Below are positions 9,067-48,897 of a stretch of 49,729 nucleotides of DNA, piece by piece (the first letter of the stretch is position 1; the number at the start of each line of letters is the position of its first letter). The stretch comes from Saprospiraceae bacterium (GTDB lineage Bacteria > Bacteroidota > Bacteroidia > Chitinophagales > Saprospiraceae), in assembly GCA_029263015.1 (NCBI GenBank), contig JAJCYI010000029.1:1-49729 (forward strand). The letters are read 5' to 3'. Position numbers and translations under genes: made by a program. The notes below the pieces were generated by a model that was not told the DNA's origin, did not search any database, and saw only the letters and a list, made by a program, of their open reading frames with translations.

Positions 9067-10536
9067 ATGAAGACTCCTGTCAAAATGCTTGGCCTCTTTG
9101 GCGGTCCATTGCTATTCCTCCTGATCCTCACCGCATTTCATCCCGAAGGTATGAGCAAAGAAGCCAATGCCATCCTTGCTTCCACTGTGTGGGTGGCCAT
9201 TTGGTGGATTACTGAGGCAATTCCTATTGCAGTCACGGCATTGTTGCCGATCATCTTGTTTCCACTTTCTGGGGGGCTTGGCCTTTCGGAAACGACTGCG
9301 GCTTTTGGGCACAAGTATGTGTTTCTCTATATCGGTGGGTTCATTATCGCCATAGCCATTGAACGGTGGGATTTGCACAAACGTATAGCGCTGAACATCA
9401 TCAAATTTATCGGAACCAATGTGAGCAGTATGATCTTGGGGTTTATGGTAGCCACGGCATTTCTGAGCATGTGGATTTCAAATACGGCCACTTCTGTAAT
9501 GATGCTGCCCATCGGCATGGCAATAGTCGCCCAATTGCGGGACAATCCTGCGACTATTGAAAACGAAAACTTGATTTTTGGGAAAGCGCTCATGTTGGCC
9601 ATTGCCTACAGCGCCTCCATTGGAGGTATGGCTACTTTGATCGGGACTCCTCCAAATTTGGTTTTGGCTGGGGTGGTGAAAGAGACCTATGGAGTAGAGA
9701 TTACTTTTTCAAAATGGATCATCTTTGGACTGCCTATTTCTATCATATTGCTCTTGATCTGTTGGAAATACTTGACAGGGTACGCATTCAAATTTCAACA
9801 AAAAAAATTCCCTGGTGGCCGGGAAGAAATCAACAGGCAGTTGGAAAAACTGGGCAAAATAACTTATGAGGAAAAACTGGTGTTGATCGTTTTTGCAATT
9901 ACCGCATTTGCCTGGATCAGCCGTTCTTTTCTTTTGAAAAAATTCATGCCTGCCATTGACGATACCATCATTGCAATGCTTGGGGCAGTGGTGCTTTTTT
10001 TGCTTCCTTCAAAATCAGAGAAAGGAAAGCTCATGGATTGGGAAACTGCCGTGAAATTACCTTGGGGCATCCTGCTTTTGTTTGGGGGGGGCTTGGCCAT
10101 TGCATCGGGTTTTCAGGCAACAGGATTGGCTGAATGGATTGGTCAACAAATGAGTTTGATGGGAGGTGTTGCTTTGCTGTTAGTCCTTTTCATCATCATA
10201 GCCAGTGTAAATTTCCTGACCGAAATCACTTCCAATCTGGCCACTACGGCTATGTTGTTGCCAGTGCTTGCGGCGATGGCAATCACCATTGATGTACATC
10301 CATATATATTGTTGGTTGGAGCTACTGTGGCGGCATCATGTGCGTTCATGCTGCCTGTGGCCACACCTCCAAATGCGGTGGTCTTTGGGTCTGGTTATTT
10401 GACTATTCCAGATATGATGAAGGCGGGTATTTGGATGAATATTTTGTCCATCTTATTATTGACTGCTATTACCTATTATGTGCTGCCACTGGTATGGGGT
10501 TTTGAGCCAGGTAAATTTCCAGAATGGAATCAGTAG
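9067..10536 (+). CDS. DASS (SLC13) family anion/dicarboxylate transporter
   Basis: This 489-residue integral membrane protein has about 11-12 hydrophobic segments. It carries the paired signatures of divalent-anion:sodium symporters: SNTATSVMMLPIG in the first half, TSNLATTAMLLPV in the second, and PPNLVLAG / PPNAVVFGSGY loops after each. Such proteins import dicarboxylates, sulfate or phosphate with Na+; the substrate cannot be read from sequence. The start at ATG 9067 is chosen because the 37 upstream residues of the open frame are polar and unlike the family. The stop TAG at 10534-10536 lies inside a heptamer array. Confidence 0.9.
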   Translation: MKTPVKMLGLFGGPLLFLLILTAFHPEGMSKEANAILASTVWVAIWWITEAIPIAVTALLPIILFPLSGGLGLSETTAAFGHKYVFLYIGGFIIAIAIERWDLHKRIALNIIKFIGTNVSSMILGFMVATAFLSMWISNTATSVMMLPIGMAIVAQLRDNPATIENENLIFGKALMLAIAYSASIGGMATLIGTPPNLVLAGVVKETYGVEITFSKWIIFGLPISIILLLICWKYLTGYAFKFQQKKFPGGREEINRQLEKLGKITYEEKLVLIVFAITAFAWISRSFLLKKFMPAIDDTIIAMLGAVVLFLLPSKSEKGKLMDWETAVKLPWGILLLFGGGLAIASGFQATGLAEWIGQQMSLMGGVALLLVLFIIIASVNFLTEITSNLATTAMLLPVLAAMAITIDVHPYILLVGATVAASCAFMLPVATPPNAVVFGSGYLTIPDMMKAGIWMNILSILLLTAITYYVLPLVWGFEPGKFPEWNQ

Positions 10537-10572
10537 GCAGTAACCCCGAACCAAAAACCAAGAACCAGAATC
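10531..10572. repeat. degenerate heptamer array (6 units) covering the transporter stop codon
   Basis: Six in-phase 7-base units: CAGTAGG, CAGTAAC, CCCGAAC, CAAAAAC, CAAGAAC, CAGAATC. The TAG of the first unit is the stop codon of the DASS transporter gene. The array fills the gap to the convergent DUF2891 gene. Confidence 0.6.
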
Positions 10573-10575
10573 CAT

Positions 10576-11679
10576 TCACTCCTCTACCGAAAGCGCATAA
10601 ACGGCAAAAGAAGCCAACCAATGTGTCCCCTCGTAATGTTCAGAGGCAATATTTGGGATGGTAACATTCAGGTGTTCCCAGGCAGCTTTCAGCATGTGCT
10701 TGCGCTGCTTTTTGCTTTTGATATGAGGATAAATGCCATAAAGGCACCATGCGCGACTAAGGTTCAAGCCATCCAGATGAACGATTTTTGGATCAGAACG
10801 ATCAGATACGTTGGCAGGAGTTGAAAGCTGCATCAGTTTTTTCTTTGGTAAAAAACGCTTGAACCACTGTCCAAAAACCTCTTTTGGCAAGACCCTCCGC
10901 ATCAAATTGGCTTCCTCCAAACAGGCTGACAGAAAATCTTCACCACTCGGTTCCCAGCCCGCTGGGCATTTTTCATCCAACAGATAATACTCTTTTGCGC
11001 TTTTTTCAATGATGGTCTGAAATCTTCTTTCACCAGTTGTATGAGCATAATCCCAAGCATAGGAAAGCCCAAAAGCAGTATTGGGATGTACGCCAGTTCG
11101 GACAGGGTATGTCTGCACCAAAAGGAATTCTTTGTACCGTGCAATGATCGCATCGGTCAATGGTTGGAGATTTTGCGACCATTTCCTGCCCTCGGGAGTG
11201 TTGTAGGTGGAGAGTTCTTCTGCGAGCTTGAGCAGCCAAGCCCAGCCATACATCCTTTCCCATGATTTGCTGGCATGTTTAAAGTAATCGACTTCTGCTG
11301 CTATGTTTGCCACAGTCAGGTTCTGGCTTAATTTCTTCTTTATTTCTTTTGCTTCTGGTAAAGCTGGAAATTGTTTTAGTAATCGCAGCAGCATCCAATG
11401 ACCGTGAACCGATGAGTGCCAATCAAAGCAACCGTAGAAGGCAGGATGCAGCTTTTGGGGCTCCATCAATGAGTTTGCACCTGTCAGAACTTGGCCAAGT
11501 TTATTTGGGTATTCTTGTTGTAGGCAGTTGAGCGCCAGGTTGGCGAAATGTGAGGCACCTTCTGCCGTCAATTTAAGGCGTCCTTCAGCATTTGTTTGCA
11601 AAAATGGATTATCATTTATTTGCGCAGTCGATACAGAAACCATAAATGATAGGATGAATAAAAAAAAAGAGGGTTTCAT
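10576..11679 (-). CDS. DUF2891 family secreted protein
   Basis: Encodes 367 residues with a signal peptide (residues 1-19, ending VSTAQ). Typical DUF2891 stretches follow: ASHFANLALNCLQQEYPNKL, HPAFYGCFDWHSSVHGHWML, MYGWAWLLKLAEEL, GVHPNTAFGLSYAWDYA, WEPSGEDFLSACLEEANLM, LDGLNLSRAWCLYGI and EHYEGTHWLASFAVYAL. The helical repeats and conserved Trp/His/Glu residues look like an alpha/alpha-toroid related to carbohydrate-active enzymes, but no activity is established. Start ATG 11679 is preferred because it opens the signal peptide; an in-frame upstream start (11730) adds 17 non-homologous residues. Confidence 0.85.
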   Translation of the reverse strand: MKPSFFLFILSFMVSVSTAQINDNPFLQTNAEGRLKLTAEGASHFANLALNCLQQEYPNKLGQVLTGANSLMEPQKLHPAFYGCFDWHSSVHGHWMLLRLLKQFPALPEAKEIKKKLSQNLTVANIAAEVDYFKHASKSWERMYGWAWLLKLAEELSTYNTPEGRKWSQNLQPLTDAIIARYKEFLLVQTYPVRTGVHPNTAFGLSYAWDYAHTTGERRFQTIIEKSAKEYYLLDEKCPAGWEPSGEDFLSACLEEANLMRRVLPKEVFGQWFKRFLPKKKLMQLSTPANVSDRSDPKIVHLDGLNLSRAWCLYGIYPHIKSKKQRKHMLKAAWEHLNVTIPNIASEHYEGTHWLASFAVYALSVEE

Positions 11680-11751
11680 GGTATGTATTTTAAAAGCCTC
11701 AGGACACTTCAATGTAAAAGTGTTTGTCAAAATTAAGTTGGAAAGGTACTA

Positions 11752-11916
11752 TTAAGGAATGAGTTCTAAATAAAGTATACAACTTCACTTTATCTTTTTG
11801 CGCCACTCTTTGTTGTCAAAACGCTTATTATACTTGGCATAATGCTCGTTTTGACGCCTCGATTGGCACAAAAATATTTTGCCTACTTGTACACTTTATT
11901 TAAATCTCATTCCTAA
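11752..11916. mobile_element. MITE-like element, long form (165 bp)
   Basis: Terminal inverted repeats of about 30 bases: the left end reads TTAAGGAATGAG...TAAATAAAGTATACAA, and the right end is the near-complement TTGTACACTTTATTTAAATCTCATTCCTAA. Inside is a second palindrome (11814-11855, arms GTCAAAACG / CGTTTTGAC). There is no open reading frame. A shorter copy in opposite orientation lies at 33669-33754. The ends start and finish with TTA/TAA, which would fit a TA target duplication as in IS630/mariner-type MITEs; that assignment is an inference. The rest of the gap 11680-12045 holds nothing else that I recognise. Confidence 0.75.
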
Positions 11917-12045
11917 ATAGGATTTCCTTGCTATAATAATCCTGAATGGTCGGGTCTTACTATCTTCAGTCAAAAATAGGATTAAACCTCCTTTCAAAAA
12001 ATAAGTCCAAGCCGTATTGAAAGTCCAAATCTAAAATTAGTACTA

Positions 12046-13077: not shown

Positions 13078-13112
13078 AATTATTCTAAGATGTAGGTATT
13101 TTTAAACGATAG

Positions 13113-13155
13113 AGCCACCCTGGTTTTCAAACTGAAAACCAGGGTGGCTTTTTTT
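13113..13155 (+). terminator. rho-independent terminator
   Basis: Perfect 17-base stem AGCCACCCTGGTTTTCA / TGAAAACCAGGGTGGCT with a 3-base loop, then a run of seven T. It closes the basic-tail protein gene ending at 13077. The remaining AT-rich gap to 13459 holds the promoter region of the next gene and no further gene. Confidence 0.9.
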
Positions 13156-13433: not shown

Positions 13434-13459
13434 TGTAGGTAGTATTAAAAACTGATATT

Positions 13460-14299: not shown

Positions 14300-14314
14300 G
14301 AAGAGGTGTATAGG

Positions 14315-14406: not shown

Positions 14407-14514
14407 AAGTGAAAACCACGACAGTGCCTGCTTCGTTTTCGAAGCGGGCATTGCCATTCCTGAATAATGGTATAACTTGCGCTCTATTTTTCTTTTACTA
14501 AACACCTTCAGCAA

Positions 14515-15899: not shown

Positions 15900-16673
15900 A
15901 TGGATCAACAAGAACTTGAACGCTTGGCTGCTTTGGTGGACGAGGCAGCCCAAAACGCAGGGGCCATCTCGCAGTTAAGCTTGGGGCACAACTTTACGGA
16001 AGATGAATCATACGAAATCCAGCGATTGTCCATCAATCATCGGTTGGAAAGGGGAGAGAAGATGGTCGGCCTGAAAATGGGTTTTACCAGTGAAGCCAAA
16101 ATGAAACAGATGGGCGTGCATGACCTGATCTGGGGCAGGCTGACGGACAGTATGCAATTGGATGCTGGAGGAACTTTGCAAATGGATCGGTTTATCCATC
16201 CGCGAGCTGAACCGGAAGTTTGTTTTTTGATAAAAAAGGAAATAAACAAAGCCATATCGTATGATGAGGCTATGGATTATGTTTCAGCAGTGGCCTTGGC
16301 GGTTGAGATTATTGATTCCCGTTATGAAAATTTCAAATTTTCACTGGAAGATGTCGTGGCGGACAATTGCTCCTCGGCAGCTTTTGTCATTGGGGAATGG
16401 CTGCCAGCAAATACCCCGCTCAATCATTTGGCAGTTGCGATGAATTTTGATGGTGAAGCAGTGCAAACTGGTTCGACCCACGCCATACTTGGAGATCCAA
16501 TAAAATCGCTGGTAGCTGCAGCGAGACTGGCAGCTAAATATGGTGAATCCATTCAAGAAGGAGCTATTGTGCTGGCAGGAGCTGCCACGCCTGCCAATTA
16601 TTTAAAAAGAAATCAGCTTATAAAAGTTGAAATTGCAGGACTTGGAGAAGTTAGTTTCAAAACGAGTTCTTAG
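15900..16673 (+). CDS. 4-oxalocrotonate decarboxylase / 2-oxopent-4-enoate hydratase family
   Basis: This 257-residue protein is of the fumarylacetoacetate-hydrolase-like fold. Motifs are VGLKMGFTS near residue 55, the metal-binding RAEPEVCFLI (Glu-x-Glu), AVALAVEIIDSRY and LAGAATPANYL. The family contains both the decarboxylase (DmpH/XylI/NbaG type) and the hydratase (DmpE type), with the same metal ligands. In a kynurenine cluster the decarboxylase is the expected step: 4-oxalocrotonate, made from 2-aminomuconate, to 2-oxopent-4-enoate and CO2. The stop TAG is the first part of a heptamer array. The choice between the two activities rests on context. Confidence 0.8.
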   Translation: MDQQELERLAALVDEAAQNAGAISQLSLGHNFTEDESYEIQRLSINHRLERGEKMVGLKMGFTSEAKMKQMGVHDLIWGRLTDSMQLDAGGTLQMDRFIHPRAEPEVCFLIKKEINKAISYDEAMDYVSAVALAVEIIDSRYENFKFSLEDVVADNCSSAAFVIGEWLPANTPLNHLAVAMNFDGEAVQTGSTHAILGDPIKSLVAAARLAAKYGESIQEGAIVLAGAATPANYLKRNQLIKVEIAGLGEVSFKTSS

Positions 16674-16796
16674 GAGTCAGGAGTCAGGTTTAAGGAATCA
16701 GGAATTATTAAGATTTAAACTGTCTGTCTTTATCTTTCAGAAACTCTGATTGCCGATCCAGTCTGACCCCAGACCCCTTAAACCTGACTCCTAAAT
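16673..16796. repeat. inverted pair of heptamer arrays
   Basis: The left array at 16673-16707 has five units: AGGAGTC, AGGAGTC, AGGTTTA, AGGAATC, AGGAATT. The right array at 16762-16796 has five units in opposite orientation: TCTGACC, CCAGACC, CCTTAAA, CCTGACT, CCTAAAT. A 17-base exact inverted repeat joins them (16679-16695 with 16776-16792). Transcribed, they could fold into a long hairpin between the decarboxylase-like gene and the tryptophan dioxygenase gene. Confidence 0.65.
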
Positions 16797-16810
16797 AATA
16801 AAACAAATTC

Positions 16811-20689: not shown

Positions 20690-21769
20690 ATGAAAAATTT
20701 CAAAATAAACGGACACGGGCATTTGCTTCCTAATCCAGAACAAATACCTGCATTTATGCGGGACAAAAAAATATTTTGGATTGACGATGACCGGAAATTT
20801 ATGCGGCAGGATGGTTGGCAACGACCAATTACTGATCCCAGTTTTTTTATTGATGAAAAGCTGGTCTGGATGGAACGGAACAATATTCAGCATGAAGTTA
20901 TTTTGAATTTATCGCAATTATATTGCAATGGTATGGAACGGGAAATGACCCACGATGTAATCCGTTTTCAAAATGATTTTAATGCTGAAATACAACATAA
21001 TTATCCAGAAAAGTTCACAGGGGGATTTGTGGTGCAGGCTGTATATATTGATGATGCATTAAAAGAAATAGAACGTTGTGTAATTAATCATAAATTAAAT
21101 TTATTATGCCTGCCGACGCATTTTTTAAATAATAAAAATGAATGGTGTTCCATTGCAGATGAATCGGTCGAACCCATATTTGAATTAGCCAATGAATATG
21201 GCTTGGCGGTAGAGATCCATCCTTATGACGGGCAAAAAATAATTGGATTGAAAGACCGCTATTGGCGGTTTCACTTAGTATGGATGTGCGCTCAAACAGC
21301 TGATACTTACCATTTTTTTACATTAATGAATTATCCCGATAAATACCCAAATATGCGTACCTGTTTTGCACATGGCAATCAATTTGGGCAAGTAAATATT
21401 GGCCGAAGGGTGCAGGGTTTTAAAGGTCGGCCAGATTTGTTTGAAGGTGCGGGACATCCCAATCAATCATTGCGAAAAACGAATTTATTTTACGACACTT
21501 TGGTACACGATGTTTATTCATTCCGGTTGTTAGTTGACCGCCAAGGGGTGAGCCAAATACTAGCTGGCATGGACGATCCGTACCCGCTCGGCGAAATGGA
21601 AACAGTAGATGGCTGCTATCCTGGAAAAGTGATTGATGAAGCTTTGGAGATGGGGTTTATTTCTGAGCATGATAAAAATGAAATCTGGTGCGACAATGTG
21701 GCTAACTGGTTATATGGCTGGGATAAAGAAGAATTTTATTCGAGGATTAAGTTAATTGATAATTTCTAA
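20690..21769 (+). CDS. nbaD: 2-amino-3-carboxymuconate-6-semialdehyde decarboxylase (ACMSD)
   Basis: This 359-residue amidohydrolase removes CO2 from ACMS and so diverts the pathway from quinolinate/NAD to 2-aminomuconate semialdehyde. The zinc ligands are at the expected places: His9 and His11 (NGHGHLLP), His177 (VEIHPYD) and an Asp in AGMDDPYPLG (about 295); His228 (CFAHGN) fits the catalytic His. The last codons and the stop TAA (21767-21769) lie inside an AATTTCT heptamer array. Kynureninase follows 32 bases later. Confidence 0.95.
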   Translation: MKNFKINGHGHLLPNPEQIPAFMRDKKIFWIDDDRKFMRQDGWQRPITDPSFFIDEKLVWMERNNIQHEVILNLSQLYCNGMEREMTHDVIRFQNDFNAEIQHNYPEKFTGGFVVQAVYIDDALKEIERCVINHKLNLLCLPTHFLNNKNEWCSIADESVEPIFELANEYGLAVEIHPYDGQKIIGLKDRYWRFHLVWMCAQTADTYHFFTLMNYPDKYPNMRTCFAHGNQFGQVNIGRRVQGFKGRPDLFEGAGHPNQSLRKTNLFYDTLVHDVYSFRLLVDRQGVSQILAGMDDPYPLGEMETVDGCYPGKVIDEALEMGFISEHDKNEIWCDNVANWLYGWDKEEFYSRIKLIDNF

Positions 21770-21788
21770 TTTCTAATTTCTCAATTTC
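21761..21788. repeat. AATTTCT heptamer array supplying the ACMSD stop codon
   Basis: Three perfect AATTTCT units (21761-21781), then C and a partial AATTTC (21783-21788). The array codes the last residues of ACMSD (Asn-Phe) and its TAA stop. A related array occurs at 40863-40906, and an AATTTCC version lies in frame at 29620-29640. Confidence 0.75.
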
Positions 21789-21801: not shown

Positions 21802-23082
21802 GTGATCGAAAATAATTTCCAAAATTCGTTGGAATATGCTAATGAAATGGATGGCATTGATCCATTAAAAAATTACCGTCAGGAATTTTATATTCCACTT
21901 CAAAAAAATGGCGAACCATATGTTTATTTATGTGGTAATTCCCTCGGACTACAACCAAAAATTACGGAGTCGTATATTTTACAAGAATTAAAGGATTGGG
22001 GGGAATTGGGTGTGGAAGGCCACCTTCATGCGAAAAATCCATGGTTGCCATATCATGAATTTTTAACAGAAAAAATGGCAAGAGTCGTGGGGGCAAAACC
22101 CATTGAGGTGGTGGTGATGAATACCCTTTCTGTCAATCTCCATTTAATGATGGCATCATTTTATCGACCAGATAAAAAACGGTTTAAAATTGTTATGGAA
22201 AGTGATGCGTTTCCGTCAGATCGGTATGCTATTGAATCACAAATTAAATACCATGGAAATGATATTAAAGATGGATTGTTGGAGTTGAAGCCGAGAGATG
22301 GAGAGGAATTAATTCGAATTGAAGATATAGAATTATTAATTGAAAAAGAAGGAGAAAATATTGCACTTATTTTATTGGGTGGCGTCAATTATTATACGGG
22401 GCAAGTTTTTGATATGAAACATATCGCAAAACTGGGTCACGACAAAGACTGTGTAGTCGGGTTTGATTTGGCGCATGGAGCAGGTAATCTGGAATTAAAC
22501 CTGCACGATGATAATATTGATTTTGCGGTTTGGTGTACCTACAAATATTTAAATTCAGGCCCAGGAAGTGTTGGTGGTTGTTTTATACATGAGCGGCATG
22601 CAAACAATTTTGACCTGCCTCGTTTTGCAGGATGGTGGGGTCATAATAAAGAAACCCGGTTTGGTATGCGGGATGTTTTTGATCCAATCCCGGGAGCAGA
22701 GGGATGGCAACTGAGCAACCCACCGATACTGTCGCTCGCAGCCATCAAAGCCTCACTCGATATGTTCGATAAAGTGGGCATGAAAAAATTAAATGAAAAA
22801 TCACGGTTGCTCACCGGTTATCTTGAGTATTTATTGGACAATATAAAAACCGACCGCTTGCGCATTATTACGCCACGTGATATAAGCCAACGCGGCTGCC
22901 AAATATCCATCCAGGTATTAAATGCTGATAAATCATTGTTTGATAATATAACAGAAGCCGGAGTGATTGCAGACTGGCGAGAACCTGATGTCATAAGGGT
23001 GGCACCCGTTCCGATTTACAATTCATTTGCCGATGTTTATCGCTTTGTGGAAATATTGAAAAAGTGCCTGGGAGATTTATAG
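21802..23082 (+). CDS. kynU: kynureninase
   Basis: This PLP enzyme cleaves (3-hydroxy)kynurenine to (3-hydroxy)anthranilate and alanine. The 426-residue protein has YLCGNSLGLQP (residues 42-52), MNTLSVNLHLMM, FDLAHGAGN (about 221-229) and WCTYKYLNSGPGS, in which Lys248 is the Schiff-base lysine. The start is GTG at 21802: the residues it adds (NSLEYANEMDGIDPLKNYR) align with the normal kynureninase N-terminus, whereas the first internal ATG would remove them. Confidence 0.96.
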   Translation: MIENNFQNSLEYANEMDGIDPLKNYRQEFYIPLQKNGEPYVYLCGNSLGLQPKITESYILQELKDWGELGVEGHLHAKNPWLPYHEFLTEKMARVVGAKPIEVVVMNTLSVNLHLMMASFYRPDKKRFKIVMESDAFPSDRYAIESQIKYHGNDIKDGLLELKPRDGEELIRIEDIELLIEKEGENIALILLGGVNYYTGQVFDMKHIAKLGHDKDCVVGFDLAHGAGNLELNLHDDNIDFAVWCTYKYLNSGPGSVGGCFIHERHANNFDLPRFAGWWGHNKETRFGMRDVFDPIPGAEGWQLSNPPILSLAAIKASLDMFDKVGMKKLNEKSRLLTGYLEYLLDNIKTDRLRIITPRDISQRGCQISIQVLNADKSLFDNITEAGVIADWREPDVIRVAPVPIYNSFADVYRFVEILKKCLGDL

Positions 23083-23086
23083 GTTT

Positions 23087-23118
23087 ACCGATACACAGAT
23101 ACACCAATACACCAAAAA
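23087..23118. repeat. octamer array between kynU and kmo
   Basis: Four in-phase 8-base units: ACCGATAC, ACAGATAC, ACCAATAC, ACCAAAAA. They fill almost all of the gap between the kynureninase stop and the monooxygenase ATG at 23122. Confidence 0.55.
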
Positions 23119-24471: not shown

Positions 24472-24522
24472 TGGTTTTTCCAAAAGGATGGGAATTTAAT
24501 TCCCATCCTTTTGGAAAAACCA
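24472..24522 (+). terminator. 25-bp perfect palindrome, terminator of the kyn transcript
   Basis: The arms TGGTTTTTCC...GGGAATT (24472-24496) and their exact complement (24498-24522) are separated by a single T. The hairpin would end in A/T runs on both sides. It directly follows kmo, and the -33 element of the next promoter lies in its right arm. Confidence 0.8.
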
Positions 24523-26231: not shown

Positions 26232-26606
26232 ATGTCTGACCTATCATCACCACTCCTCGATTATGAAGGAGACGAAGAATACAATCCAACCCAAGATGAA
26301 AAAAACGTGGCTATGTTGAGTCATGTTCTGACCTTTTTTGCGGGCTTTATTGCGCCACTTGTTATTTACATTATCAAAAAAGAAGAATCGGACTATGTGC
26401 GTGACCACGCCATCGAATCGTTGAATTTCCATATTTCCATTTTCATTTATATACTAGCTTGCATCCCGTTGTTATTTATAATCGTGGGCATATTTTTCAT
26501 GATGGCCATCGGCATGATTTCTTTTATCCTGGTCATTGTGGCAACAGTGAAAGCGAGTGAAGGAAAAATGTACCGATATCCGATGACCATTAGGATCATA
26601 AAGTAA
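26232..26606 (+). CDS. DUF4870 family membrane protein
   Basis: The 124-residue protein has an acidic cytoplasmic N-terminus followed by three hydrophobic helices: SHVLTFFAGFIAPLVIYII, a second helix after DHAIESLNFHISI, and FMMAIGMISFILVIV. The linker KKEESDYVRDHAIESLNFH is characteristic of DUF4870/Tic20-like small membrane proteins. No function is established for the bacterial family. It stands alone between modC and the T9SS protein. Confidence 0.85.
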   Translation: MSDLSSPLLDYEGDEEYNPTQDEKNVAMLSHVLTFFAGFIAPLVIYIIKKEESDYVRDHAIESLNFHISIFIYILACIPLLFIIVGIFFMMAIGMISFILVIVATVKASEGKMYRYPMTIRIIK

Positions 26607-26613
26607 TTCAAGG

Positions 26614-26637
26614 TAGTGCGAATCTCCAGATTCGCAC
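26614..26637. repeat. short palindrome, repeat family B
   Basis: AGTGCGAATCT CC AGATTCGCACA: 10-base perfect arms GTGCGAATCT / AGATTCGCAC with a 2-base centre. A diverged copy is at 49611-49633 near the right end of the window. Confidence 0.6.
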
Positions 26638-26689
26638 ATGCTTACAAGCGAACTTGGGGTTTGTACTATTTGGTAAGTAAACCAATGCT

Positions 26690-29428: not shown

Positions 29429-30292
29429 ATGACCGTAAACGATTTTTTTGAACTGTTTTTGGAGGAATTAAAGCAGCACGATAAATTAAACGAGTATTAT
29501 AAATACCACGATGATCCTGCAAAACTCCCATTCCGAAAAGCCTATTTCACACAGCGACTCCAATACGTTTTCGACCAAACTTCAACTGCAAAATTTCCCA
29601 GCCTCGTCGGTCGGCAGGCAATTTCCAATTTCCAATTTCCAAATATCTGGGATTGCGGCAGTGGCTATTCTACCACCCAGATTTTCCTCGCCTTGAATGG
29701 GATTTCCTCGCGTGGTTCAACGCTCGAATTTTATTATGAGCACATCCCAAAGCGGATGAAGTATTGGTCGAAATATGGTGACATGGATTTGGTGAAAGTT
29801 AGTTATGAAAATATTTTTGATGCCCCGTTAAAAGAAAACAGCGAAGATATTGTGATCCTGCAGGATACGCTCCACCATCTGGAGCCACTTAATCAAAGCC
29901 TTGATATTTTCCAGAAAACGCTTCGCCCCGGTGGCTTCCTCTTGGCCATTGAAGAAAACGGCAACAACTTGATGCAGCGCATTAAATTGTACCGTCAACG
30001 GGGGAGCAAACGCATCATCGAATATTACGACGAGGGCCTTGGTCGTAAGGTTTTGATGGGAAATGAAAACATCCGTCCGTTCAAGACCTGGAAAAAGGAA
30101 TTTGAAAAAGCGGGTTTCCAAATGGATGAAGACAGCGTGCAATATGTGCGCCTGTTCCCGCCTTCTTTTTTTGAAAAACAGCCACTTGATGAGGTGGTGG
30201 AAAGGGAGCAGCGAATTTGGAAAAACCACCCACTGCTGAAAGAGTATTTCTTCTTTGGGATGAATTTTTTGGCGCGGAAAGGCGAGGGATAG
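29429..30292 (+). CDS. class I SAM-dependent methyltransferase (substrate unknown)
   Basis: The 287-residue protein has motif I in NIWDCGSGYSTTQ (about residues 71-83), an acidic post-I region, EDIVILQDTLHHLEPL (motif II-like) and LRPGGFLLAIEE (motif III-like). A helical N-terminal domain (EELKQHDKLNEYYKYH) precedes it. Residues 64-70, just before motif I, are coded by three perfect AATTTCC heptamers (29620-29640), an apparent in-frame repeat insertion. ATG 29429 is chosen; an upstream GTG in frame lies in promoter-like sequence. The methyl acceptor cannot be predicted. Confidence 0.8.
   Translation: MTVNDFFELFLEELKQHDKLNEYYKYHDDPAKLPFRKAYFTQRLQYVFDQTSTAKFPSLVGRQAISNFQFPNIWDCGSGYSTTQIFLALNGISSRGSTLEFYYEHIPKRMKYWSKYGDMDLVKVSYENIFDAPLKENSEDIVILQDTLHHLEPLNQSLDIFQKTLRPGGFLLAIEENGNNLMQRIKLYRQRGSKRIIEYYDEGLGRKVLMGNENIRPFKTWKKEFEKAGFQMDEDSVQYVRLFPPSFFEKQPLDEVVEREQRIWKNHPLLKEYFFFGMNFLARKGEG
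29620..29640 (+). repeat. in-frame AATTTCC heptamer repeat inside the methyltransferase gene
   Basis: Three perfect copies of AATTTCC (21 bases, seven codons) coding Ile-Ser-Asn-Phe-Gln-Phe-Pro around residues 64-70. The unit is the same as in intergenic arrays at 40863-40906 and close to that at 21761-21788. Confidence 0.75.
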
Positions 30293-30376
30293 ACCTGTCA
30301 GGTTGTTTTTTTTCTATATGTAGGAAAGCAATTAATTGCCTTCCTACATATAGAAAAAAAACAACCTGACAGGTCT
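30291..30376. repeat. 86-bp near-perfect palindrome
   Basis: Two 43-base arms with one mismatch and no loop. The outer part is AGACCTGTCAGGTTG and the centre is GCAATTAATTGC-like. It starts 3 bases before the methyltransferase stop codon ends, so it covers that stop. It lies between the convergent methyltransferase and TonB-receptor genes and could stop transcription from both sides. Confidence 0.85.
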
Positions 30377-30378
30377 AA

Positions 30379-30416
30379 AAAAAAGATGGCCCCAATCACT
30401 GGAGCCATCTTTTTTC
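30379..30416. terminator. bidirectional terminator
   Basis: AAAAAAGATGGC and GCCATCTTTTTT flank a 13-base loop, with A and T runs on the two sides. It follows the 86-bp palindrome and lies 22 bases from the 3' end of the TonB-receptor gene. Confidence 0.75.
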
Positions 30417-33668: not shown

Positions 33669-33754
33669 GTTAAGAAATGAGATTTAAATAAAGTGTACAA
33701 GTAGGCAAAAAGATAAAGTATGGTTGTACACTTTATTTAGAATTCATTCCTAAC
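33669..33754. mobile_element. MITE-like element, short form (86 bp), internal deletion copy
   Basis: Inverted ends GTTAAGAAATGAG...AAATAAAGTGTACAA and TTGTACACTTTATTTAG...CATTCCTAAC match those of the 165-bp element at 11752-11916. The interior ACAAGTAGGCAAAAAGATAAAG joins the two subterminal regions of the long form (in opposite orientation) at a shared GCAAAA, and lacks the inner palindrome. The rest of the 615-base gap 33445-34059 holds a short heptamer stretch (33981-34001) and a weak -7-like box CATCTTTG at 33942. Confidence 0.75.
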
Positions 33755-34059
33755 CAGTACAATAGTTGGTCGGTAAGAAGGAATGTTTGTTTTTGTCCGT
33801 GGGCAAACATATATAATTCATTCCACCCCACAAAATTAATTTTCTGAGAGCGATCAAACCATGTCTATACAGCAATAGCAAGGCTTTTATGATTTTCTTG
33901 TCCGTTGCAGACAAAATGTTTAATCTTAGGTACTAACTTCGCATCTTTGCATAGCTCATTATCCAAACATACATACATCAAGTAAAAAGTAGGCAAGAAG
34001 GCAACTATTCAGCCGTTCCTGTTTCGTTTGCATGTCCGCCTCGGCAATCGTGATTTTCT

Positions 34060-36972
34060 ATGGCAAACCAATCAGTTACTTTGGGAGTAAAAAGTAAAAA
34101 ATCAAAAGTAAAAAGTCAAACAAAGCAATCCATCGGCAAAAGCATTTTCATCAAAGGTGCGAGGGCAAATAATCTAAAAAACATTGACCTTGAAATCCCT
34201 AAGAACCAGTTGGTTGTGGTGACAGGGGTGTCTGGTAGCGGCAAGTCGTCCATCACAATGGATACACTCTATGCCGAAGGCCAACGCCGTTATGTGGAAA
34301 GCCTGAGCAGCTATGCCCGACAGTTTTTGGGCCGGATGAAAAAACCGGATGTCGATTATATAAAAGGAATTTGCCCAGCCATCGCCATCGAACAAAAGGT
34401 AAGCACCAGCAATGCCCGTTCAACGGTTGGCACCTTGACGGAAATTTATGATTACCTGCGTTTGCTTTATGCGCGGATTGGACGAACATTTTCACCAGTG
34501 TCAGGCCAGGAGGTGAAACGTCATTTTGTGACGGATGTAGTTGATTTTATTAAAAAGCAAAAGGAGGGAACAAAGGTGCAATTGTTCATTCCCCTTCCTG
34601 TGAAATACAAAGACCGCACGCTTGAACAGGAATTTAACCTGCTTTTGCAAAAAGGTTATACGCGTGTTTTTTGGGAAAATGAACTGAATCATATCCAGGA
34701 TATTTTAGAGGGCAATGAATTTGACCTAACTCAAACGCTAGACCATTATATTAAAGAGGACGTCCGAATCCTCATCGACCGATTTGTGGTGAAAAAAGGG
34801 GAGGAGGAAAACCAAAAACGCATTGCCGACTCTATTCAGACGGCTTTGTACGAGAGTGAAGGGGAGTGCCTTTTGACGGTGGACGATGGACAGCTGACAG
34901 CAAACGGTGAGGTACACCGTTTCAATACCCGCTTTGAGCTTGATGGCATTGAATTCCCTGAACCTAACCCTCAACTTTTCAATTTCAACAATCCTTATGG
35001 TGCCTGCCCAAAATGTGAGGGGTTCAGCAAGGTAATGGGCATTTCTGACAAAAAGGTAATTCCTGTGGCGTCCAAATCTGTGTTTGAAGGTGCTGTGGCC
35101 TGTTGGTCTGGTGAAAAATATGGCTTGTGGCTGGAGGAGTTCCTGAAAGTGGCACATAAGTTTGATTTTCCAGTTCATACTGCGTACCAGGATTTGACAA
35201 AAAAACAGCAGCGTTTGCTGTGGACTGGCAACCAACATTTCCATGGCATCAATGCCTTTTTTGAGGAACTTGAAGAGAAACTTTATAAAATACAAAACCG
35301 CGTCATGTTGGCTCGCTATCGAGGTCGCACGATTTGTCCTGTCTGCAATGGAGGGCGGTTGCGGCCTGAAGCTACCAATGTGAAAATCGGAGGCATGGCC
35401 ATCACCGATCTGGTAGATATGCCAATTGATGAGTTGTTGGCGTTTTTCAAAGAACTTGAAGATCCAAAATTAAAATTGCCAAATCCGCTTACTGAGAATG
35501 AAAAGTTAATTGCCAAACGATTGCTGTTCGAAGCTTCCAGTCGTTTGCTGTTCATGTGTGATGTTGGGCTTAAATATTTGACCCTAAATCGTTTATCGTC
35601 AACACTTTCTGGCGGTGAAACCCAGCGCATTAATCTGACAAGGACGCTTGGCAGCAACCTCACCGCCTCGATGTATATCCTCGACGAACCGAGTGTCGGG
35701 CTTCATCCCCGCGATACCAACCGACTCGTGGAAGTGCTGAAAAACCTGCGGGACATGGGCAATACCGTTGTGGTTGTGGAACACGAAGAGGATATTATCA
35801 GAAATGCAGACTACCTCATAGATATTGGTCCTGCGGCGGGCATCCACGGTGGGAAAGTCATTTTTGCCGGGCCATTTGAAAACATTTATAACGAAGCCAC
35901 AGAAAGCCTGACCACCAAGTACATGACTGGTCGCATGGAAATCGAGGTGCCAAGAATGCGGCGAAAGGCAGTAAAATGGTTGGAGCTTAAAGGATGCCGC
36001 CAGCACAACCTGAAGAAAATTGACGTCAAAATACCGCTCAACTGCCTAACTGTGGTCAGCGGTGTGAGTGGCAGCGGGAAAACCACACTTGTCAAAGATA
36101 TTCTTTATCCAGTGCTGAAAGCCCATTTTGACGAACCAACATCCAAAACGCCTGGGCAGCACAAAGAACTCACAGGCGATTTGAAAACGTTGACCCAGGT
36201 TGAAATGGTCAACCAACGACCAATTGGAAGGTCCAGCCGCTCCAACCCAGTGACTTATGTAAAGGCTTACGATACGATCCGCAACCTCATGGCGAACCAG
36301 CAGTTGAGTCGCATTCGCGGCTACAAACCTGGGTATTTTTCTTTTAATGTGGATGGTGGCCGCTGCGATGCTTGTCAAGGGGAAGGCGAGCAGGTCATCG
36401 AAATGCAATTCCTCGCCGATGTCCGCCTTGAATGTGAGGACTGCAAGGGCAAACGCTTCAAACCAGAAATGTTGGATGTGCGCTACAATGGTAAGGACAT
36501 CCACGAAGTCCTCAACCTGAGTGTCGAAGAAGCCCTCGAATTTTTTGCTGACCAAAAGGATATTGTCAAAAAACTCCAGCCGCTTTTTAATGTTGGCCTC
36601 GGCTATGTCAAACTCGGCCAAAGTAGCAGTACGCTTTCCGGCGGGGAGGCCCAGCGGGTCAAGCTCGCCAGTTTCCTCAACAAAGAACGGCGGGGAGAGC
36701 ACATCTTGTTCATTTTCGATGAACCGACTACAGGCCTGCATTTCCACGACATCCGCAAGCTGCTCGATGCGCTGAATGCTTTGATTGAAAATGGCCATAG
36801 CGTACTTGTTGTCGAGCACAATTTAGAAGTAATCAAATCTGCCGATTGGGTGGTTGACCTCGGGCCTGGTGGTGGCAAGGATGGCGGGGAACTGGTGGCA
36901 CAGGGCACGCCGGAGGAAGTGGCGAAGGTTAAGCGGAGCTGGACGGGGCAGTTTTTGAAAGGGAAGTTGTGA
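34060..36972 (+). CDS. uvrA: excinuclease ABC subunit A
   Basis: This 970-residue DNA-damage sensor of nucleotide excision repair binds DNA with UvrB. It has two ABC modules: Walker A GVSGSGKSS (near residue 56) and GVSGSGKTT (near 670), signatures TLSGGETQRI and TLSGGEAQRV, and Walker B YILDEPSVGLHP and FIFDEPTTGLHF. Zinc modules are visible in CPKCEGFSKV, CPVCNGGRLRPE and CDACQGEGEQV...CEDCKGKRF. Two stretches are odd. Residues 10-21 (Val-Lys-Ser-Lys-Lys-Ser-Lys...) and 273-284 (TVDDGQLTANGE) are coded by 35-base heptamer arrays, apparently inserted in frame. Both lie outside the catalytic motifs. Confidence 0.97.
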   Translation: MANQSVTLGVKSKKSKVKSQTKQSIGKSIFIKGARANNLKNIDLEIPKNQLVVVTGVSGSGKSSITMDTLYAEGQRRYVESLSSYARQFLGRMKKPDVDYIKGICPAIAIEQKVSTSNARSTVGTLTEIYDYLRLLYARIGRTFSPVSGQEVKRHFVTDVVDFIKKQKEGTKVQLFIPLPVKYKDRTLEQEFNLLLQKGYTRVFWENELNHIQDILEGNEFDLTQTLDHYIKEDVRILIDRFVVKKGEEENQKRIADSIQTALYESEGECLLTVDDGQLTANGEVHRFNTRFELDGIEFPEPNPQLFNFNNPYGACPKCEGFSKVMGISDKKVIPVASKSVFEGAVACWSGEKYGLWLEEFLKVAHKFDFPVHTAYQDLTKKQQRLLWTGNQHFHGINAFFEELEEKLYKIQNRVMLARYRGRTICPVCNGGRLRPEATNVKIGGMAITDLVDMPIDELLAFFKELEDPKLKLPNPLTENEKLIAKRLLFEASSRLLFMCDVGLKYLTLNRLSSTLSGGETQRINLTRTLGSNLTASMYILDEPSVGLHPRDTNRLVEVLKNLRDMGNTVVVVEHEEDIIRNADYLIDIGPAAGIHGGKVIFAGPFENIYNEATESLTTKYMTGRMEIEVPRMRRKAVKWLELKGCRQHNLKKIDVKIPLNCLTVVSGVSGSGKTTLVKDILYPVLKAHFDEPTSKTPGQHKELTGDLKTLTQVEMVNQRPIGRSSRSNPVTYVKAYDTIRNLMANQQLSRIRGYKPGYFSFNVDGGRCDACQGEGEQVIEMQFLADVRLECEDCKGKRFKPEMLDVRYNGKDIHEVLNLSVEEALEFFADQKDIVKKLQPLFNVGLGYVKLGQSSSTLSGGEAQRVKLASFLNKERRGEHILFIFDEPTTGLHFHDIRKLLDALNALIENGHSVLVVEHNLEVIKSADWVVDLGPGGGKDGGELVAQGTPEEVAKVKRSWTGQFLKGKL
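34086..34120 (+). repeat. in-frame heptamer array in the uvrA N-terminus
   Basis: Five in-phase units: AGTAAAA, AGTAAAA, AATCAAA, AGTAAAA, AGTCAAA. They code a lysine/serine-rich extension at residues 10-21. The same unit occurs outside the gene at 33981-33994 (AGTAAAA, AGTAGGC). Confidence 0.7.
34876..34910 (+). repeat. in-frame heptamer array inside uvrA
   Basis: Five in-phase units: ACGGTGG, ACGATGG, ACAGCTG, ACAGCAA, ACGGTGA. They code residues 273-284, between the end of a helical region and the block RFNTRFELDGIEF that is conserved in UvrA. Confidence 0.65.
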
Positions 36973-36995
36973 GTTGCAAGTTGCAAACTTGCAAC
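36973..36995. repeat. short palindrome, repeat family C, copy 1
   Basis: GTTGCAAGTT GCA AACTTGCAAC: 10-base perfect arms, 3-base loop, starting at the base after the uvrA stop codon. Further copies lie at 38488-38510 and 39639-39660. Confidence 0.75.
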
Positions 36996-37040
36996 AACAG
37001 CTTGTCCAAAGGTGTCACCTTTTTAGCTTGCTGAGATGGC

Positions 37041-39969: not shown

Positions 39970-40824
39970 ATGAAATCTGCTGAAATAAACGATGTGTCGA
40001 GGAGATTGCTACCCATAGTGGTCGGTGTGTTGGTATTTCTTTTGATCGTTTATTTTTGGATCACTTCCATTAAATTCGTTCCACAAATCGCTGATAATTT
40101 TTTTCCTGCCGTTAATAATAAAACCCCGACTTATGGAGAAGTAGGCGAAATGTTCGGGGCAGTGAGTGCGCTTTTTTCTGGACTTACCACCTTTTTTGTT
40201 ATTATTTTATTTTGGCGACAACGTACAGATAAAAAGCAACAGCAGGTAGAATTAAAACAAACAAAAATTGATTTTGAAATAAACCGGATAAATCATTTAA
40301 TTATTAATCAAATAAACCGGATCGACCATTTAATAGAAACATTGTCATTTCAAGATGGGGAATTAAACGAATATGAAGGAACTTTCGGAATCGATTTTTT
40401 CAATTCTGTTTTGCACCGCGATAAAATAAATAGATTTAAAAATGGCGAAGCTGTTGGGCAACAGGAGGAGGAACTTGTTTTCCAGAATTTCAGTAGCCTG
40501 AAAAAATTACTTGTCGTAATTGCACAAAGCAACCAGACGATTGAAGACCAAATTAAAATATCGAAAATTGAAAACGGTTCAAGGGAGCAATTATATGCTA
40601 TATTTTTAAGAAATCTCGGAGCATCCTTGCTCGTTATGATGCGGAAATTAGAAGCCTTTACAACGGTGATTATTAATAACGTGGAAGGCTATCAACACAC
40701 TTCGTTGTGTTTTGAAAATCCTATTTTTATTATCTCCGAATTAAGTGCGGATTTTTTCCATAAAGTAGAAAAAAACTGCCAAGGTGAATTGATTGAAAGA
40801 ATAATCCCTGAGCCAATGGTTTGA
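39970..40824 (+). CDS. two-TM membrane protein resembling putative phage abortive-infection (AbiC-like) proteins
   Basis: Encodes 284 residues with two membrane helices (about 13-32 and 62-85) separated by TPTYGEVGEMFGAVSALFSGLTTF. That stretch, with its GxxGEMFGAxxALFSGL pattern, is followed by a charged coiled coil (RTDKKQQQVELKQTKIDFEINRINHLI). This layout is that of the 'putative phage abortive infection protein' group. The cytoplasmic C-terminal domain is helical and shows no catalytic motif. The defence role is inferred from the family label only; no phage-defence partner is adjacent. It stands alone, convergent with an OmpA gene. Confidence 0.65.
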   Translation: MKSAEINDVSRRLLPIVVGVLVFLLIVYFWITSIKFVPQIADNFFPAVNNKTPTYGEVGEMFGAVSALFSGLTTFFVIILFWRQRTDKKQQQVELKQTKIDFEINRINHLIINQINRIDHLIETLSFQDGELNEYEGTFGIDFFNSVLHRDKINRFKNGEAVGQQEEELVFQNFSSLKKLLVVIAQSNQTIEDQIKISKIENGSREQLYAIFLRNLGASLLVMMRKLEAFTTVIINNVEGYQHTSLCFENPIFIISELSADFFHKVEKNCQGELIERIIPEPMV

Positions 40825-40862
40825 ATTTTGGAAATTGAGATATTAGAAACCTGGAGATAATT

Positions 40863-40906
40863 AATTTCCAATTTCTCAATTTCTAATTTCTCAATTTCCA
40901 ATTTCG
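40863..40906. repeat. AATTTC(C/T) heptamer/octamer array
   Basis: Units AATTTCC, AATTTCTC, AATTTCT, AATTTCTC, AATTTCC, AATTTCG in direct order, in the convergent gap between the AbiC-like gene and the OmpA gene end at 40910. Same unit as at 21761 and 29620. Confidence 0.8.
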
Positions 40907-40909
40907 CCC

Positions 40910-41698
40910 TTACCCACTCACCGCTGGCGCTTCCAATAATTTAAAAAACTGATCCAGTTTTGGTGTGATGACAATTTCTGTGCGGCGATTGATGCTGCGG
41001 CCAGTTTCCGAATCGTTATCTGCTTTTGGAATATATTCAGAACGCCCTGCTGCTGTCATTCTCGTAGGATCAACGTAATGTTCTTGTTCTAAAAAACGAA
41101 CCACCGAAGTTGCCCTCTTTGCGCTCAAATCCCAATTGTCAGTTGTGCATGCATTTTCGATCGGCACATTGTCTGTGTGTCCCTCAACGATAATGTCGAG
41201 TTGGTCGTGGTCGTTAATGATGACTGCTATTTTGCCCAGTACTTCTTCGGCCTGACTATTGATTTTGGAGCTACCGGATTTAAACAGCATTTTGTCAGAA
41301 ATAGAAACATGCACCAGCCCGCCCCTCACTTCAACAAATACATCTTCGTCATTGATGTCAAATAATGACCGTTTTAAATTCATTACCAACGCCATGTTTA
41401 GAGAATCTTTGGATTGCATCTGGGCAGTTAGGTTTTGAATAAACCCATATTGTTGCGAAAGTGATTTTAGTGATTCATGGATGCTTTCCGCACCCGTTTT
41501 ACTGACAATGGAAAGATCGGCCATGCGCTCGAGCAGACTGGTATTTGTATTTTGTAAATTATTCACCTGCTCTTCCAAAAAAGTAACTTCTTGCTTTTTT
41601 AAGGCGAGCTGATTTTTCAGATTTTTGATTTTGTCTTTATTACAAGAGGTGAAAAAAATAATGATTAAAAAGGAAATTAAAACCGGTTGCTTTTTCAT
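40910..41698 (-). CDS. OmpA-family peptidoglycan-binding lipoprotein
   Basis: The 262-residue protein has a lipoprotein signal (MKKQ..., Cys19 in FFTSCNKD), a coiled-coil stalk (about 25-60: NLKNQLALKKQEVTFLEEQVNNL) and a C-terminal OmpA domain (about 140-250). The OmpA domain has IIVEGHTDNVPI, NWDLSAKRATSVVRFL and GRSEYIPKADNDSETGRSINRRTEI, which bind diaminopimelate of the cell wall. It anchors the outer membrane to peptidoglycan. The motor-like 'KMLFKSGSSKINSQAEEVL' opening is usual for the domain. Confidence 0.93.
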   Translation of the reverse strand: MKKQPVLISFLIIIFFTSCNKDKIKNLKNQLALKKQEVTFLEEQVNNLQNTNTSLLERMADLSIVSKTGAESIHESLKSLSQQYGFIQNLTAQMQSKDSLNMALVMNLKRSLFDINDEDVFVEVRGGLVHVSISDKMLFKSGSSKINSQAEEVLGKIAVIINDHDQLDIIVEGHTDNVPIENACTTDNWDLSAKRATSVVRFLEQEHYVDPTRMTAAGRSEYIPKADNDSETGRSINRRTEIVITPKLDQFFKLLEAPAVSG

Positions 41699-48073: not shown

Positions 48074-48122
48074 ATTTTTTGTTTCAAATCTGGAATGCGA
48101 GAACGATGAACAGGCTTATGGG

Positions 48123-48130
48123 CAAAGGTA
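48123..48130 (-). promoter_or_regulatory. putative -7 box of the giant repeat protein gene
   Basis: TACCTTTG on the minus strand is an exact TAnnTTTG match, 49 bases upstream of the ATG at 48073. The upstream side, where a -33 box would be, is occupied by a heptamer array. Confidence 0.4.
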
Positions 48131-48142
48131 ATATATAGTTGA

Positions 48143-48279
48143 CAGTTAGCAGTATGCAGTATGCAGGAGAACAGTAGGCAGTAATACAGAACGCAATAAT
48201 CAGTAGGTAGAAAGGAGTCTTATCCCACTGCCCACTGCCCACTGCTAACTGCTAACTGCCCACTGCTAACTGCCCACCT
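48143..48279. repeat. inverted pair of heptamer arrays, supplying a stop codon
   Basis: The left part has CAGTTAG, CAGTATG, CAGTATG, CAGGAGA (48143-48170) and CAGTAGG, CAGTAAT (48172-48185). The right part (48224-48279) has eight units in opposite sense: CCCACTG three times, CTAACTG twice, CCCACTG, CTAACTG, CCCACCT. The complement of CTAACTG contains TAG, and the unit at 48266-48272 supplies the stop codon and last residues of the PNPOx-like gene. Confidence 0.8.
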
Positions 48280-48814
48280 CCATTCCCGTATCCTTCCCGT
48301 CAATACTAAGCATATTTCTTTCTTTCCAGTATTTCGGGAGTCCGTCTGCGCCTTTAGCCTCCGACCATTTTTCCAAACGGTCGCGTTGGCCATTGAACTC
48401 GAAGAGTGGGACACCGTAACCGCAGGAGGTTTGCACACTCTCAACAGTGAGATCGAAGATTTGGCGGGCCGCTGGAATATTTGGGAACAATGAAGCCAGC
48501 TCTTCCCACGCTGGATTATTTCGATAAATGGTTTTCACACTTCCGTAAACCCTGAGTAGTAAGGGCAATTCTTCAAATGAGCACCACATCAGCGTCATGC
48601 GATTGATATCGAGCACATGAGCAGCGGTTTCATTTCCACTGCCTGTCATATTGAGCCAAAGGACTCTGTTTTGGCCAATCACCTTTAGGGTGTCCATGCC
48701 TTTCGGCGAAATATTCACCCGGCCATCTTGGGCAGCGGTACCGACAAAGAACAGGTGTTGTTTTTCGATAAATACTTTGAGCGAATCGTTGATTGAAGAC
48801 ATCATTTTTGCCAT
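48266..48814 (-). CDS. pyridoxamine 5'-phosphate oxidase family flavoprotein
   Basis: The 182-residue split-barrel protein has HLFFVGTAAQDGRVNISPKGMDTLKV (flavin-binding strand pair), RVLWLNMTGSGNETAAHVLDINRMTLMWCSFE and LRVYGSVKTIYRN. These are typical of the uncharacterised 'pyridoxamine 5-phosphate oxidase family' that may bind FMN, F420 or heme. It is probably not PdxH, which is longer and has a different phosphate site. The final residues Glu-Val-Gly-Ser and the TAG stop come from a heptamer array, so the original C-terminus may have been altered. ATG 48814 or the ATGs 3-4 codons further in are all possible starts. Confidence 0.85.
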   Translation of the reverse strand: MAKMMSSINDSLKVFIEKQHLFFVGTAAQDGRVNISPKGMDTLKVIGQNRVLWLNMTGSGNETAAHVLDINRMTLMWCSFEELPLLLRVYGSVKTIYRNNPAWEELASLFPNIPAARQIFDLTVESVQTSCGYGVPLFEFNGQRDRLEKWSEAKGADGLPKYWKERNMLSIDGKDTGMEVGS

Positions 48815-48823
48815 GAAACCTTA

Positions 48824-48897
48824 GAGTTATGAGTTGTTGAGTTTCTGAGTTGTTGAGTGGGGAGCTTATTTAAAACTCAATAACTCTGATACTCAAA
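48824..48897. repeat. inverted pair of octamer arrays
   Basis: GAGTTAT (7) then GAGTTGTT, GAGTTTCT, GAGTTGTT, GAGTGGGG (48831-48862). In opposite sense, AACTCAAT, AACTCTGA, TACTCAAA lie at 48874-48897. The arrays fill the gap between the PNPOx-like gene and the TRIC gene. Confidence 0.7.

Follow-up and report, generated by a model that had tools for sequence, protein, structure and literature searches.

Short tandem arrays of degenerate 7-bp and 8-bp units recur in a contig of a Saprospiraceae bacterium (Bacteroidota; assembly GCA_029263015.1, contig JAJCYI010000029.1) and in other sampled parts of its genome, and related genomes carry arrays at some of the same sites, mostly with other words. 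This turnover points to repeats being generated by some process and tolerated by the genome, and away from a fixed signal. The explanation we favor, tentatively and at somewhat less than an even chance, is a mutational origin of the arrays, combining slippage by 7-8 nt with template switching, in place of any one element or code. The window, as we call the whole stretch of 49,729 nucleotides that was analyzed, is contig C29 of a genome of 6.95 Mb in 245 contigs (G000); its genes include those for tryptophan dioxygenase, kynureninase, and polyphosphate kinase (PPK). Among the relatives, G010 is nearest to G000, and G008 and G003 are further members of the genus; the PPK of the closest relative compared is 82% identical.

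Periods were sampled in the window and 40 other stretches of G000, 730,792 bases in all (ca. 10% of the genome), taken from contigs C1-C20 (whole or first 20 kb) and from C139, C242, C184, C208, C116, and C203, with long contigs over-represented. The six extra contigs were drawn from earlier sequence matches; because C184 had matched through an array, a slight bias of the sample is possible. A segment scan of these bases found 56 arrays of period 7 and 17 of period 8, whereas five rounds of dinucleotide shuffles gave none at either period, and every other period from 2 to 13 had at most 3. The 12, 4, 7, and 7 arrays at periods 14, 15, 16, and 21 fall on multiples or sums of 7 and 8, and period 18 (9 arrays) was the sole other outlier. 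Exact tandem duplications numbered 80 at period 7 (6.3 expected), 16 at period 8 (2.3 expected), and 15 at period 14 (none expected), with period 6 slightly raised (29 vs 19.3) and periods 5 and 9 near chance. Intergenic autocorrelation was high at lag 7 (z 13.3), lag 8 (z 11.0), and lags 14 and 15 (both z 10.4), and likewise up at lags 3, 4, and 5 (z 7.7, 7.2, and 5.0). A 100-kb control from E. coli held 5 arrays, none with period 7 or 8. With genes assigned by a simple longest open reading frame (ORF) rule, which makes the labels approximate, 36 of the 56 period-7 arrays lay within the 13% of bases labelled intergenic; an excess of 7-bp units over other periods, mostly intergenic, is what marks the heptameric simple-sequence repeats of bacteria. 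An earlier note on this DNA had described such arrays as a recurring feature and proposed a period scan against shuffled sequence, under which the claim would fall if periods 7 and 8 were no commoner than other short periods or than in shuffled sequence. Run on ca. 10% of the genome, that scan leaves the claim standing, because periods 7 and 8 exceed both; the excess is real in the sampled 731 kb by array scan, autocorrelation, and exact duplications.

The same note had held that sequence is not shared between loci, and this proved wrong. Among 99 arrays there were 70 identical-word pairs across different stretches, against a null mean of 5.5 and a maximum of 14 in 200 draws. At one mismatch the words formed 38 clusters, compared with 60 for random words, the largest cluster having 14; no single word dominates the genome in the manner of the GGGAATC and TAACTGA families. 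Most words are AT-rich (mean G+C 0.31). Three exact units of AATTTCN gave 102 matches in G000, overlapping ones counted, 128 in G010, and 0-13 in each of the other 12 genus members, and the reversed pattern, used as a control, gave 0 in all 14. The window arrays at 21761 and 29620 fit this pattern, and that at 40863 has the same word in mixed 7/8 steps. Across the phylum, the pattern occurred in 7 of 395 genomes (G000 included) and the backwards control in 15; since the control was the commoner, AATTTCN is no special word at that level.

Turnover is seen most clearly within a nonribosomal peptide synthetase/polyketide synthase (NRPS/PKS) gene, whose array density is far above that of the sampled genome. 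The gene has adenylation, carrier, sulfotransferase, ketosynthase, acyltransferase, aminotransferase, condensation, and thioesterase domains, the sulfotransferase and aminotransferase being embedded. In-frame arrays number 9 in G000, 11 in G010, and 12 in G008, in an uninterrupted ORF each time, and most of those in G000 lie between Pfam domains:

L069 4916-16828: NRPS/PKS gene, 3970 residues
Residue 384: array after the first adenylation match
Residues 668-680: array before the sulfotransferase
Residues 968-993: array at the ketosynthase start
Residues 1418-1429: array in the ketosynthase C-terminal extension
Residues 1490-1503: array before the acyltransferase
Residues 1780-1790: array after the acyltransferase
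Residues 2587-2607: two arrays before the condensation domain
Residues 3214-3227: array inside the second adenylation domain

We counted arrays as co-located when they lay within 15 columns of each other in the protein alignment and took significance from random draws. By this measure, 8 of the 9 G000 arrays were co-located with arrays in G010, whereas random placement gave 1.30 and none of 2000 draws reached 8; neighbors at one site make up two of these eight. With G008, co-location held for 5 of 9 G000 arrays (P 0.01) and 6 of 11 G010 arrays (P 0.002). The words themselves were mostly different: in 16 of 20 co-located pairs, similarity did not exceed the 95th percentile for arrays at different sites. 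Three-way identity was 0.50 near arrays and 0.62 elsewhere, with gap fractions of 0.26 and 0.06, respectively.

The arrays of the orthologous intergenic gaps that could be compared lie in L069 and L086, outside the window. Of 11 testable gaps between G000 and G010, four held arrays in both genomes, one in G000 alone, and six in neither. Words were the same or close in two of the four co-occupied gaps, and in the other two both word and period (7 vs 8) differed: GGAGTCA against AATGGTTG, and GGTTCTT against AATGGCTG, the latter forming an inverted pair around a common core, GTACTCGYCAT, in each genome. At L086 12132, the orthologous gap retains an inverted pair in both genomes while word and period change. 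Between G000 and G008, two of four gaps had arrays in G000 alone and two in neither. A long hairpin with ACCACAGAGAACACAGAGATACACAGGG arms occupies L199 ca. 2657-2975 in G010, in a gap where G000 has heptamer arms. The earlier note had argued that some process generates or maintains the period, as opposed to a single mobile sequence; these changes of word and period at orthologous sites support that view, as do the strict 7/8 step and the mixed 7/8 array at 40863. There is also a hint of enrichment upstream of the dioxygenase gene, where 5 of 13 sequences (the window, L010, L013, L015, and L017) have an array within 300 bp, all with different words, compared with 19 of the 163 called genes of the same 13 sequences; we take the count as a hint because the upstream neighbors are mostly not orthologous.

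Arrays that lie close together are often inverted copies of each other, a feature absent from the earlier description. Among G000 array pairs no more than 100 bp apart, 16 of 24 exceeded the 95th percentile of random reverse-complement similarity, and 2 of 24 that of direct similarity; with a lower array threshold and pairs within 150 bp, 22 of 35 were inverted. The arrays of the window, for which the strand field of the feature table reads '.' in every row, are as follows:

10531..10575, strand '.': single array, words CAGTAGG then AACCCCG/AACCAAA (score 10.6, 0.07 expected)
16672..16705, strand '.': G-bearing arm of an inverted pair, word AGGAGTC, 7 bp (score 13.8, 0.00 expected)
16765..16802, strand '.': C-bearing arm, CCTTAAACCTGACTCCTAA, complementary to the 16672 arm (not significant as an array alone)
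21753..21786, strand '.': single array, word TAATTTC, 7 bp (score 18.2), directly upstream of the kynureninase ORF (kynureninase domain)
23073..23115, strand '.': single octamer array, word ACCAATAC, 8 bp (score 15.2)
29619..29642, strand '.': array of CAATTTC, 7 bp, in a methyltransferase-like ORF (TRF, 100% matches)
34086..34120, strand '.': array of AGTAAAA, 7 bp, near the called start of a UvrA-like ORF (score 17)
36964..36986, strand '.': GTTGCAAGTTGCAAACTTGCAAC, a short inverted pair where the UvrA-like ORF ends (TRF; 36955-37005 folds, z -3.77)
40822..40912, strand '.': inverted pair, ca. 40824-40850 against the AATTTCC/AATTTCTC array at 40863-40905 (TRF score 79; z -7.58)
48137..48207, strand '.': G-bearing arm, degenerate word GCAGTAT/GCAGTAG, 7 bp (score 14.2 for 48137-48166; TRF to 48207)
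48224..48277, strand '.': C-bearing arm, words CCCACTG/CTAACTG, 7 bp, partner of 48137 (score 29.8)
48827..48858, strand '.': octamer arm TGAGTTGT, 8 bp (score 12.2, 0.02 expected)
48874..48900, strand '.': inverted partner AACTCAATAACTCTGATACTCAAA of the 48827 arm (not significant as an array alone)

For each of the 12 coordinates given in the earlier note, we estimated the number of equal or better period-7/8 segments expected in shuffled intergenic DNA of the window. Eight beat chance on their own (10531, 16673, 21761, 23087, 40863, 48143, 48224, and 48824; at most 0.07 expected) and four did not (6801, 4.33 expected; 16762, 3.10; 33981, 1.35; 48874, 0.60); two of these four, 16762 and 48874, pair in inverted orientation with 16673 and 48824, respectively. 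The four longest pairs fold better than shuffles, at z -5.30 for 48137/48224, -4.76 for 16672/16765, -4.71 for 48827/48874 (folded as 48820-48905), and the value listed above for 40824/40863. Three of the eight window stretches folded, those at 21753, 23073, and 10542, are single arrays and form no stem (z -0.37, 0.11, and 0.89). The units at 40863 step by 7, 8, 7, 8, and 7. The words of the 10531 array recur elsewhere: C184 has a 36-bp match at 97% identity, and C222 and C64 have shorter ones. The array at 29619 precedes the Pfam Methyltransf_11 domain, which begins at residue 129 of its ORF, and the true start of the UvrA-like ORF may lie after the array at 34086..34120.

Further properties of the pairs were compared between genomes. 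Sixteen G010 stretches were picked at known array matches, so the G010 pair counts do not measure density; other genomes are mostly represented by one stretch of at most 20 kb, many centered on a dioxygenase match, those of G369, G305, G043, and G332 being placed at AATTTC matches and G076 (1 kb only) being left out. All five near pairs in the named Saprospiraceae-like loci were inverted. Of the 42 inverted pairs in the genus, 39 had the G-bearing arm leftmost, as had 3 of 5 in the named loci; because array-free gaps carry the same base skew, which predicts a fraction of 0.87 (P 0.19), we rejected arm polarity as a signal and do not use it as evidence. At the ends of array-free gaps in sampled Bacteroidota, the coding strand tends to be richer in C than in G upstream of starts (7 of 8 group-by-side tallies). 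The two arms matched unit by unit in 1 of 15 pairs in G000, 6 of 15 in G010, and none of the 6 pairs from the other groups. Copying of one arm from its partner through a hairpin template was rejected, the units being mostly unmatched in order, as expected if each arm slips separately. The arms were also considered as parts of the genome's dispersed palindromes, a candidate rejected because arrays are rarely near such palindromes.

Under the slippage explanation, the polymerase would slip with a step of 7-8 nt fixed by the length of primer-template duplex needed for restart, a hypothesis that Rehm et al. 2015 report from their reference 33, of 2007. Existing arrays would then supply 7-8 nt of homology, allowing switches of template between arrays and between strands; such switches would spread words, build in-phase mosaics of words, and build inverted pairs. 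Old arrays would decay as new ones arise, and they would persist where sequence is free: at gene borders, in spacers beside hairpins, and in weakly conserved parts of very long genes. Any effect of the stems on mRNA ends would be secondary. The only direct sign of whole-unit change comes from two copies of one ~170-bp element, whose arms differ by 21 and 7 nt.

Several observations weigh against this explanation. Among near pairs, 3 of 13 were inverted and 5 direct in genus members other than G000 and G010, and 0 of 3 were inverted in 19 other Bacteroidota samples, so pairing, shown for G000 and G010, is weaker there. At arrays in anchored copies, one of 17 gaps was 7 nt and the other 16 were 1-3 nt, though the gaps are few, and whole-unit change appears in a single anchored copy pair. 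Slippage alone leaves both the vocabulary common to loci and the replacement of words unexplained; we infer the template-switch step to cover them, as we do the mechanism as a whole. In the NRPS/PKS gene, 4 of 20 co-located pairs were similar, one with a nearly identical word (ATTCACC vs ATTCATC), and co-located pairs were slightly more alike on average (0.29-0.35 vs 0.19-0.21), which means that some arrays were inherited rather than replaced. Co-location there may also stem from a small number of tolerant sites, and the alignment may draw similar repeats together. Finally, the patchy distribution of arrays calls for a lineage factor, and none was found.

Four other explanations were weighed. 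Paired arrays could be kept as long RNA stems at mRNA ends, serving termination, protection, or processing, with arm sequence free as long as it pairs. The folding of the four longest window pairs (z -4.7 to -7.6) and the inverted pair kept at L086 12132 despite its changed word and period agree with this, as do the P6b stems of the Nostoc trnL intron, described as exchanging one heptamer motif for another (PMC4476775). However, single arrays lack a fold (z -0.4 to 0.9), in-frame arrays lie within a coding gene, where a terminator could not work, and convergent gaps are not enriched (arrays in 9 of 58, compared with 53 of the 226 co-directional gaps and 11 of the 82 divergent ones; p 0.098), and we consider such stems an unlikely cause. 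A role as multiple binding sites for proteins that bind DNA or RNA, which has been proposed in Geobacter (IHF/HU) and Beggiatoaceae (S1, Csp, Csr), would account for a fixed pitch and for opposite-strand paired sites like those reported in G. metallireducens (PMC2700814), but it sits poorly with the many words (38 clusters in 99 arrays), the mixture of 7 and 8 pitch, the replacement of words at the same site, and the arrays inside coding DNA; this, too, seems distinctly improbable.

Small mobile elements resembling miniature inverted-repeat transposable elements (MITEs), with heptamer arms as their ends or interior, appear rather improbable as well. Such an element is suggested by the ~170-bp sequence found at two loci with terminal inverted repeat CAGGGCTGTTAAGT and arms inside, and by the core GTACTCGYCAT common to two G000 loci and G010. 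Yet when arrays were masked, the three largest dispersed families had 2 of 45, 2 of 25, and 0 of 9 members within 60 bp of arrays, though one small family had 2 of 4, in a comparison resting on the 16 largest of 55 families; ends and interior common to copies were seen for one locus pair only, and the other loops inspected look different by eye. Templated repeat addition, in which a telomerase-like enzyme adds 7-8-nt words to 3' ends, would fit the strict unit length, the vocabulary, and the G-bearing arm on the left, but that polarity is about what base skew predicts and is weaker in the named loci. Moreover, G003, the array-richest 20-kb sample among the genus mates, has no RVT_1 reverse transcriptase match, and G016 has four matches and no array in its 20 kb; reverse transcriptase was rejected as the writer because its presence does not track array density, and we regard templated addition as very improbable.

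Heptamer arrays are known from cyanobacteria, Xanthomonas, Geobacter, Beggiatoaceae, and some Bacteroidetes. The short tandemly repeated repetitive sequences (STRR) of heterocystous cyanobacteria comprise heptamer families within one genome, as here. The literature searched for intergenic tandem repeats yielded no report of such arrays in Saprospiraceae. A 2007 paper, reference 33 of the 2015 article by Rehm et al., is said to be by Mrazek et al. According to Rehm et al. 2015 (PMC4692102), an overabundance of 7-bp repeats in bacteria had been recognized in 2007, and a polymerase-footprint hypothesis is reported there as the sole explanation on offer by 2015. The earlier note's statement that no counterpart is described in this group is wrong for the phylum: MacGregor 2015 describes TAACTGA heptamer arrays in five Bacteroidetes, with other heptamer direct repeats adjoining (PMC4679880). 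These repeats, also described from Beggiatoaceae and Cyanobacteria, are direct and mostly intergenic, with other heptamers in some of the same gaps (PMC4679880). In our material, TAACTGATAACTGA occurred in 0 of 253 loci examined, and the best window match to the TAACTGA repeat was TAACTGCTAACTGC, with 2 mismatches (0.29 expected by chance).

Closer likenesses are found in other systems. Geobacter metallireducens is described as having tandem 7/8-mers, mostly as opposite-strand pairs at variable distance, a pairing found here in 22 of 35 near pairs of G000, and another heptamer family between and within genes (PMC2700814); its repeats belong to a few defined classes, each having a single consensus and interpreted as IHF/HU sites, whereas ours have many words and turn over. 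The Xanthomonas GGGAATC and Nostoc GGGGA(T/C)T repeats share with ours degenerate intergenic heptamers, some inverted pairs, and length variation between close species, but are described as one G-rich word able to form G-quadruplexes, unlike the mostly AT-rich words of 7 and 8 bp reported here (PMC4692102). The P6b region of the Nostoc trnL intron resembles our arrays in its stem of 7-nt repeats, repeatedly replaced and with insertions and deletions of whole 7-nt repeats, and in the presence of either TDNGATT or NNTGAGT motifs at the same site (PMC4476775). Words are likewise replaced at the same site here, and in two gaps the period also switched between 7 and 8. Unlike that single group I intron locus, the present arrays have many words at many loci, occur in coding DNA, and include octamers; the window has no Rfam match at the gathering threshold, which speaks neither for a group I intron setting nor for a known Rfam family as their identity. 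Published work describes heptamer arrays, inverted pairs of heptamers, and the replacement of motifs at a single stem; a many-word 7/8 system with genome-wide and coding turnover was not found in the literature searched.

Period-7/8 arrays built from other words occurred, in samples no longer than 20 kb, in families f18, f19, and f23, and also in f30, f50, and f61, where the stretch was selected at an AATTTC match; of the nine family members sampled outside the genus, seven had no array at the threshold used. This patchy spread resembles that reported for TAACTGA repeats. In G003, L092 18551-18974 holds ca. 26 units of GGGAGTA/AGAGTAG, followed by TCATCCC, GAGTAGG, and TCATCCC arrays. Dispersed repeats lie in the same DNA: a MITE-like repeat of ~160 bp at window 11753-11921, with full or partial copies on many contigs; a short derivative of it at 33670-33760 that keeps both ends (TTTAAATAAAGTGTACAA-like inverted ends); a long near-perfect palindrome, AGACCTGTCAGGTTG...CAACCTGACAGGTCT, at 30290-30386, from a dispersed family with a variable center (7 members in the sample); and members of further dispersed hairpin families at 24477-24517, 26601-26642, and 49567-49641. 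A GC-rich palindrome, CCTGCCTGCCGGCAGGCAGG or a variant, stands within or next to arrays that differ in word, as though inserted there, at L056 13216, L059 5451, L071 3508, L076 6121, and L069 12720.

We give a slim chance to a stronger version, in which lineage-specific repeat-writing or template-switching machinery fills tolerant sites, weakly conserved parts of multidomain enzymes included, changing the word but keeping site and pitch. If true, it would mean dedicated machinery for repeat writing or template switching in place of passive slippage. The in-frame arrays of the NRPS/PKS gene suggest that such repeats provide protein linkers. With its many words, units of both 7 and 8 bp, paired arms, and turnover, this genome is suited to direct tests of how the step length is set and how words spread and are replaced.

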